64,000 bases of DNA, taken from Isoptericola sp. BMS4. GTDB lineage: Bacteria; Actinomycetota; Actinomycetes; Actinomycetales; Cellulomonadaceae. The stretch is taken from positions 2,397,679-2,461,678 of the forward strand of contig NZ_SIRP01000001.1 of the NCBI RefSeq assembly GCF_011634835.1, written 5' to 3'. The stretch's first letter is position 1, and every line of letters begins with the position of its first letter. The translations under genes were made by a program, and so were the position numbers. This document shows positions 2,006 through 3,716 of this stretch, one piece after another. The notes below the pieces were generated by a model. That model was not told where the DNA came from, did no database searches, and saw only the letters and a program-made list of their open reading frames with translations.

Positions 2006-2067
2006 GTTGTGGGTACGAAGGTGGTGTGGGTTCGCGCGCGAACCCACACCACCTTCGTACCCACAAC
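2006..2067. repeat. 62-bp perfect palindrome between convergent genes
   Basis: Two 31-nt arms meet with no spacer at 2036/2037. The centre is the self-complementary TTCGCGCGCGAA (2031-2042), and the arms carry GGGTACGAAGG and its complement. It begins 9 nt after the uridylyltransferase stop and ends 13 nt before the yigZ stop, so it could act as a bidirectional terminator. It is about twice as long as an ordinary terminator stem, has no loop and has no T-tract. It may also extrude as a cruciform or belong to a dispersed palindromic repeat family. Confidence 0.9.
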
Positions 2068-2829: not shown

Positions 2830-2847
2830 GGAAAAAGTGTGCCAAGC
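2830..2847 (+). repeat. direct repeat, copy 1 (upstream of recombinase-like gene)
   Basis: GGAAAAAGTGTGCCAAGC ends 16 nt before the ATG of the gene at 2864. A near copy lies at 3588-3606, differing only as A versus TA after GGAAAA. The A-run stands out against the GC-rich surroundings. It could be a binding or crossover site for the encoded protein, or a duplicated promoter element. Confidence 0.7.
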
Positions 2848-2863
2848 GCGGGAAGATCGTGCC

Positions 2864-3541
2864 ATGACCAGCGCGCACGAGCAGCCGGCCGAGACACCCG
2901 CCGACGCCACGGCCGCCGGACGCTACCCGCGGCCTCCGGTGTCGTTCGACGAGGCCGAGTGGGTGTGGCGCGAGCTGTCGGTGGAGGCGATGCGGCCGGG
3001 GGCGAAGCCGGAGACGGTGCGGCTGGCGGTGATCGCCGGCCTGACGCGCGCCACGGGCGCCCGGTACGGGGACCTGCTGCGCGTGCGGGCCGAGGACCTG
3101 GACCTCGGCCCCGACCCGGCGGCCTTCGCGCGCCGGGGGCGCGTGGGCGGCAGGCGGGACCCGGGGGAGGGGAGCGTGGTCGTGCGGCACGGCAAGCACC
3201 GCACGGTGCGCGTGCACCGGGTGCCGGGGGAGGTGGTGCTCCTGCTGCGGCACTGGATGGTGGTGCGCACCGAGCTGGCGGCCGAGCTCGAGGGGTCGGT
3301 GCCGCGCGCCCTGCTGCTCACGGTGCACCACACGCACGACAACGGCACCACGGTCTCGAGCGGCCTGCCGATCACGCGGCAGGGGCTGGTCCTGTCGTGG
3401 CGCCGCTTCGTGCACCGGACGAACGCCCGGTTCGGGGCGGTGCGGGCGCCGCTGCCCACACGCTTCGAGCAGGTGCGGCGGGCCTGGGTGGAGGCAGGAG
3501 TGACGGACCCGGGGCGCGAGGTCGTCCAGGGCGAGGGCTGA
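2864..3541 (+). CDS. degenerate tyrosine-recombinase-like protein
   Basis: The 225-residue product looks like the catalytic half of a phage-integrase-type recombinase. The ATGARYGDLLRVRAEDLDL stretch (near residues 63-81) matches the box carrying the first catalytic arginine. The VVVRHGKHRTVRVHRVPGE hairpin matches the region of the catalytic lysine, and SGLPITRQGLVLSWRRF matches the helix before box II. Where the HxLRH motif is expected the protein reads PLPTRFEQVRRAWVEAG, and it ends before any tyrosine helix. It therefore lacks HxxR and the nucleophile and should not cut DNA by the usual chemistry. It may be a DNA-binding derivative or a decaying gene. Start ATG 2864 follows the A-rich repeat. 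An 18/19-bp direct repeat brackets the gene. Confidence 0.55.
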   Translation: MTSAHEQPAETPADATAAGRYPRPPVSFDEAEWVWRELSVEAMRPGAKPETVRLAVIAGLTRATGARYGDLLRVRAEDLDLGPDPAAFARRGRVGGRRDPGEGSVVVRHGKHRTVRVHRVPGEVVLLLRHWMVVRTELAAELEGSVPRALLLTVHHTHDNGTTVSSGLPITRQGLVLSWRRFVHRTNARFGAVRAPLPTRFEQVRRAWVEAGVTDPGREVVQGEG

Positions 3542-3587
3542 GGGCCCCAGGGGGCGTGCGTCGACAGCCTCCTCGGCTCTTCTCTCA

Positions 3588-3606
3588 GGAAAATAGTGTG
3601 CCAAGC
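3588..3606 (+). repeat. direct repeat, copy 2 (downstream of recombinase-like gene)
   Basis: GGAAAATAGTGTGCCAAGC starts 46 nt after the stop codon at 3541. It matches the copy at 2830-2847 apart from one extra base and one substitution in the A-run. Both copies have the same orientation and bracket the whole gene. Confidence 0.7.
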
Positions 3607-3655
3607 ATCATGAAACCCACCAGGCCAGTTGCACCGGCCCGGGAGCAAGGACGAG

Positions 3656-3690
3656 CCAGGGGTGCCCACCACGCCGGTGGGCACCCCTGG
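3656..3690. terminator. hairpin between convergent genes
   Basis: A perfect 15-bp stem (3656-3670 with 3676-3690) closes a 5-nt loop, ACGCC. It lies between the plus-strand gene ending at 3541 and the minus-strand GNAT ending at 3717. There is no T-tract, so termination is inferred from position and stem stability. Confidence 0.7.
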
Positions 3691-3716
3691 TGCCGGGAAC
3701 CGCCGCCGGCCGGCCC

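Follow-up and report, generated by a model that had tools for sequence, protein, structure and literature searches.

Repeat pair and surrounding genes

The locus examined in the analysed stretch of 64,000 nucleotides (the window) consists of a gene for a protein of 225 amino acids, two near-identical repeats on either side of it and a hairpin behind the second repeat. The features are as follows:

2830-2847, + strand: site A, GGAAAAAGTGTGCCAAGC, 16 nt ahead of the start codon
2864-3541, + strand: 225-aa gene (ATG at 2864, TGA at 3539-3541) for a protein of predicted tyrosine-recombinase fold without the catalytic Tyr, proposed to be a DNA-binding regulator
3588-3606, + strand: site B, GGAAAATAGTGTGCCAAGC, 46 nt past the stop codon and between convergent genes
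3655-3691, + strand: GC-rich hairpin of 16 bp, 48 nt after the end of site B

The open-reading-frame list gives the frame of the 225-aa gene from an earlier TTG. Its neighbours were assigned to the IMPACT and GNAT families by the Pfam models UPF0029 and GNAT, and a UGPase-like gene, the identity of which was read from its translation, is also located nearby. A perfect palindrome of 62 nt (window positions 2006-2067) lies between the converging UGPase-like and IMPACT-family genes and is probably the terminator for both; the Rfam family Ms_IGR-8 overlaps it with a sub-threshold score of 20.5 bits (threshold, 44). This match, which is away from the repeats, was the only one in Rfam, and no known RNA was detected at the locus.

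The preliminary description had reported near-identical direct repeats around a recombinase-like gene, the second of them 46 nt after its stop codon. Both were found on the same strand, and the distance between TGA at 3539-3541 and the beginning of the second repeat at 3588 agrees with that report. The 11-mer GTGTGCCAAGC shared by the repeats has two copies in the window; 36 of 100 shuffles reached two copies when one mismatch was allowed, and the 11-mer alone is unremarkable in the window and within chance. For the 15-mer AAWAGTGTGCCAAGC, base composition alone gives an expectation of 0.00002 copies in the window and about 0.001 in the 4.43-Mb genome. The search for more copies, which had been suggested earlier, showed that the exact 15-mer is present four times in the genome, sites A and B included, and the repeat pair is therefore far beyond chance. 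Allowing up to two mismatches added only two places: a one-mismatch copy and, within a reading frame, a two-mismatch copy.

The segment 3608-3696 behind site B was predicted to fold at -49.9 kcal/mol (z -3.4), and none of 200 shuffles was equally stable. The terminator scan did not return the hairpin at 3655-3691, from which a T-run is absent. It possibly marks where a short RNA begun at site B ends, or it may terminate transcription of the convergent genes.

Predicted fold and catalytic residues of the 225-aa protein

The Pfam integrase model PF00589 matched the protein at 20 bits, which is below the cut-off of 27.1. PHROGs returned only weak integrase matches (E 0.012 and 0.25), the NCBIfam search gave no match, and PDB sequence searches using the protein and its profile gave no convincing one. 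The AlphaFold2 model, which was built from 32 sequences, had a pLDDT of 81.5. It could be superimposed on the C-terminal domain of XerD with Z 13.7 and rmsd 2.8 over 149 residues, and its best Foldseek match was XerH (1.8e-5). The protein is thus predicted to adopt the fold of the tyrosine-recombinase catalytic domain.

The catalytic residues were inspected in an alignment of 81 members, namely the window protein and 80 relatives. R67, taken as Arg I, and K111, taken as the beta-strand Lys, were kept in all 81, their placement coming from a weak profile alignment to a XerD (probability 4%) that covers the first half only. Box II, which was placed by eye from the sequence and the model without an alignment program, contains R200 (taken as Arg II) in 81/81, and the His of its HxxR pattern is replaced by Leu197 in every member. 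The chain ends 10-55 residues past R200, and no member has a Tyr anywhere in that part (0/81), so that the nucleophilic Tyr expected after box II is absent. Judged from these residues, the protein can scarcely cut DNA. It is probably a former tyrosine recombinase in which the catalytic parts have been lost and the DNA-reading fold has been retained.

A search of 50,697 phage records found no relative with a threshold of E 1e-3. The plasmid search revealed two distant members, both on Streptomyces plasmids (NZ_CP107912.1 and NZ_CP109351.1) and annotated as hypothetical proteins.

Xer chromosome-dimer recombinases are active enzymes that work on paired half-sites. XerD and XerH are the best structural matches of the catalytic domain, whereas the 225-aa protein lacks both Tyr and His and recognises, as proposed here, a single element without symmetry. 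A possible descent of the motif from a dif half-site was considered: a dif-type pattern had no match in the genome with up to two mismatches, and a search of open-licence papers, together with a passage of PMC4210621, yielded no actinobacterial dif sequence. Another structural neighbour was SroF of Phi3T in complex with DNA (PDB 9rd5; Z 9.3, rmsd 5.6, 160 residues aligned), which differs in being, by the title of its entry, a phage protein. A search of open-licence papers returned none that names SroF.

The only relevant precedent recognised among open-licence papers on recombinase-derived regulators was MrpR (YopR), the master repressor of Bacillus phage SPbeta. MrpR is reported to have the tyrosine-recombinase fold, to have lost the recombinase function and to bind the 15-bp SPBRE motif in ten prophage promoter regions, as determined by ChAP-seq (PMC10516654). 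The likeness lies in a recombinase fold with lost catalysis combined with a repeated intergenic motif. However, MrpR is phage-encoded, has about 320 residues including a core-binding domain, retains the Tyr and controls lysogeny, whereas the present protein corresponds to the catalytic-domain part only and has five sites beside housekeeping genes. By analogy in fold and motif, the 225-aa protein probably acts like MrpR; it is not classed as MrpR because it is chromosomal (in Actinobacteria), shorter, devoid of Tyr and without a phage match. A literature search with the letters of the motif returned, among open-licence papers, only those unrelated by title.

Distribution of the motif and the gene

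The search for relatives found 88, of which 80 were retained; the best of them point to an Isoptericola-like actinobacterium as the host. All 80 have an upstream site within 260 nt ahead of the matched frame; 78 of these sites are exact to A[AT]A[AG]TGTGCCAAGC and the other two carry one mismatch. An exact downstream copy, between 450 and 1800 nt past the start of the matched frame, was present in 35 relatives and was not found in 45, some loci of which end early at contig ends. In Isoptericola-type genomes the downstream copy follows the gene at a short distance. Most loci of Cellulosimicrobium and Oerskovia have it several hundred nt further away, in several cases with a gene call between. 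Alignment of the sites gave the consensus AAA(T/A)A(G/A)TGTGCCAAGC(G/A), and neither a conserved inverted partner nor a conserved -35 was seen in the aligned flanks; the element is single and asymmetric.

From the motif places in the genomes of relatives, 60 were hand-picked, and 20 further regions, which partly overlap these, were added. Depending on the filter, the total of distinct sites is 228, 235 or 241; these tables contain five or more chance copies that stand alone in genomes lacking the gene, and they count one genome under two handles with identical coordinates (G112 and G330). Sites and genomes are phylogenetically non-independent.

Close members of the family and the motif co-occurred. 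In a sample of 297 genomes from the order, 10 contained a close member of the family (E below 1e-60), and all 10 had two to five copies of TARTGTGCCAAGC. Among the other 287 genomes, none had two copies and five had one (Fisher 8e-19, with genomes treated as independent). In a class sample of 393 genomes, which overlaps the order sample, AAWARTGTGCCAAGC was found in exactly the four that encode a closely related family protein (E of 9.3e-99 or lower), with four to seven copies each, and in 0 of the 389 others; the reversed AAWARTGTGCCAAGC had one match overall. Three of these four genomes are in both samples, and the fourth is Streptomyces-like. Within the genus, all 18 genomes contained three to five copies of WAGTGTGCCAAGC (reversed control, 0-1). 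The 38 genomes of relatives that were scanned all contained the motif, as expected from their selection, and by the strict pattern 33 had at least two copies and five had one. Against the association, weak family matches without the motif occurred in two genomes of the order sample (G292 and G145) and in five genomes of the class sample.

The preliminary description had asked whether the repeat is widespread upstream of unrelated genes, as a general promoter motif would be. This was borne out in so far as the motif does occur near unrelated genes, but each genome has it at a small number of places, and more than one copy was seen only together with the gene. A general promoter motif was rejected because no sampled genome that lacks the gene had more than one copy.

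A distant branch of longer proteins, traced from the weak match in G292, was present in 12 of 60 Cellulomonas-group genomes. Its profile matched that of the window family at E 1.4e-11 over 98 columns. The N-terminal part showed a sub-threshold resemblance to the integrase SAM-like domain in one of the two proteins tested, and the model (pLDDT 81.8, pTM 0.58) matched XerA best among tyrosine recombinases (1.2e-5). This branch is accompanied by a motif of its own: ATAACGGAA was found upstream of the gene in 10 of 12 loci, and the longer form ATAACGGAACCTNNCG had exactly two copies in nine of the 12 gene-bearing genomes and none in the 48 without the gene. One copy of ATAACGGAACCTNNCG precedes the branch-two gene in 9/9 (loci L308-L325), and the other precedes an sdhC-like gene, as read from translations, in 8/9. 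The three gene-bearing genomes without ATAACGGAACCTNNCG (G292, G701 and G708) have more divergent members, and G708 contains the shorter core ATAACGGAA twice. The motifs of the two branches agree at 9 of 17 positions, a likeness reached by 9% of shuffles and therefore not significant. We regard this second motif, which again marks the protein's own gene and a distal site, as the best argument for recognition of the motifs by these proteins.

As a separate observation, a degenerate recombinase-like gene of 307 aa in G292 (L165) stands beside a UGPase-like gene, as in the window, but in a genome with neither motif.

Proposed regulator and alternative readings

In addition to sites A and B, the source genome contains three further sites, which are located between the following pairs of genes:

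rpe / hisE
hisD / SWIM zinc-finger gene
treZ-like gene / small ORF

Sites at these places also occur in same-genus genomes. The hisD/SWIM site, which was first seen in those genomes, is the sole one-mismatch copy in the source genome and brings its total to five. Over all loci, 11 hisE, 6 SWIM and 6 small-ORF sites were tallied; by automatic start calls, the site lies 93 nt ahead of hisE in 7/11, 55-63 nt ahead of the SWIM gene in 6/6 and 50-52 nt ahead of the small ORF in 3/6. The distal sites vary between lineages, and those of other relatives were found ahead of ribD-like genes, ahead of a parA-like gene behind xerD, ahead of a GAF-domain histidine kinase gene in Streptomyces, and elsewhere. 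Pfam supports the neighbours named Histidinol_dh, SWIM, GAF/HisKA, catalase, IclR, GH4, dehydroquinase, UPF0029 and GNAT; the xerD-like gene has an integrase-family match, the treZ-like protein has an alpha-amylase match just under the cut-off, and the remaining gene names are readings of translations. A small protein is encoded behind a site in several genera (also in L245); it ends in SWDDPDEL in L237 and L241, and the version at L120:1233-1463 (- strand) had no Pfam match.

Taken together, the data make it quite likely, as judged from sequence, that a chromosomal, decommissioned tyrosine recombinase binds AAAWARTGTGCCAAGC as a sequence-specific regulator of few targets. According to this proposal, the 225-aa protein would have kept the DNA-reading fold, lost the chemistry and come to recognise AAAWARTGTGCCAAGC as an asymmetric 16-bp element. 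Site A would most likely be an autoregulatory operator ahead of its own gene, where bound protein near the gene start could hinder RNA polymerase. The protein would also bind site B just behind the gene and about three further intergenic places, those at rpe/hisE, hisD/SWIM and treZ-like/small ORF. We infer the binding from the co-occurrence of motif and gene, which also supports, as a candidate reading, the earlier suggestion that the repeats are a pair of sites bound by the gene product. With less certainty, binding may repress rather than activate, because several A sites of relatives directly adjoin a TANNNT-like -10, as seen by eye and uncounted. The window's own site A begins with AAGTGT and has no clear TANNNT-like -10 beside it.

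The distance from the motif to the called start was 26-29 nt in 33 of 81 own-gene sites and 39-160 nt in the others. Helical phasing of the site relative to the -10 was considered by eye and discarded, the spacings to start codons having no clear pattern. A leaderless frame from the GTG of the motif was likewise discarded, as by eye the frames stop at differing places.

Gene positions around the sites came from a purpose-made caller based on codon scores, which overlooks some small genes and sets some starts wrongly. By this caller, 233 of the 241 sites in the table were outside called genes, five of the 233 having no called gene on either side. By the same caller, the 160 sites that remain without the own-gene ones have the next gene on the motif strand in 64 cases and on the opposite strand in 80, and 40 lie between convergent genes. 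Such inconsistent orientation outside site A tells against a simple promoter element. It also takes some weight from the regulator reading and adds to that of the promoter and architectural alternatives.

The first alternative, which we regard as unlikely, is that the motif is a core promoter with a TANNNT -10 and a fixed discriminator for a particular sigma factor, the recombinase-like gene being one target and site B-like sites driving short RNAs. The motif could itself be promoter sequence because TANNNT is followed 7 nt on by a C-purine step (position 13 is a purine in 225 of 235 sites), which places TAGTGT at the usual -10 distance from it. Of 147 non-A sites, 33 are followed by a TCACC box at +41 to +50 (in 32 cases within +44 to +50), whereas 2.2% of 28-nt background stretches contain one; it sits within a stretch like CTCACCACCCAGCCCGGA (for example in L239, L167 and L242) and is perhaps an RNA element or the site of a second factor. 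Because of this box, the hairpin after site B and the TANNNT with its C-purine step, some sites, including site B and those like it, may start short RNAs, which would also account for the free orientation of such sites. Against a core promoter, a conserved -35 is absent, no sigma-70-type match was found at the locus, TANNNT is without its initial T in site A, and no TCACC box follows site B of the window. The GCCAAGC part is presumably more constrained than usual discriminators. Furthermore, a sigma factor would need to track the gene, and to do so for two different motifs.

An architectural or looping factor, which would bridge sites A and B or distant loci through few intergenic sites without promoter-specific regulation, appears rather more doubtful. 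Tyrosine recombinases bring distant sites together, and the mixed orientation of the non-A sites, the 40 between convergent genes and the flanking of the gene by two sites in 35/80 relatives fit such a role. However, the repeated spacings to the same genes (hisE, the SWIM gene and the small ORF) are against it, and few sites per genome offer little for architecture.

The minimal excisable cassette of the preliminary description, with the repeats as recombination sites, is suggested by a recombinase-fold gene flanked by direct repeats but is very improbable and was rejected, since all 81 members lack the His of box II and have no Tyr beyond it, the upstream site is present in 80/80 relatives but the downstream one in 35/80, the content between the repeats varies with a further gene call in several loci, the motif is present at other loci without the gene, phage matches at E 1e-3 are absent and plasmid matches are two distant ones. 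In addition, no inverted half-site pair around a crossover spacer was found in the aligned flanks, and the repeats probably do not delimit a mobile cassette.

Beyond the regulator proposed for the window, we lean towards the broader view that Actinobacteria possess a family of decommissioned chromosomal tyrosine recombinases turned into dedicated DNA-binding regulators. Its branches would have different cognate 16-bp sites at their own promoter and at one to few distal places, which for one branch are near histidine, pentose and trehalose genes and for another precede succinate dehydrogenase. Site B and similar sites may additionally be starts of short RNAs. The protein, its motif and the small number of sites are defined well enough to be tested directly, and with two protein-motif pairs the specificities of such proteins could be compared. 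Such genes should not be taken for integrases, nor their flanking sites for att sites. If the proposal is true, the conversion of a recombinase into a regulator is not confined to phages but has also taken place in the chromosomes of their hosts.
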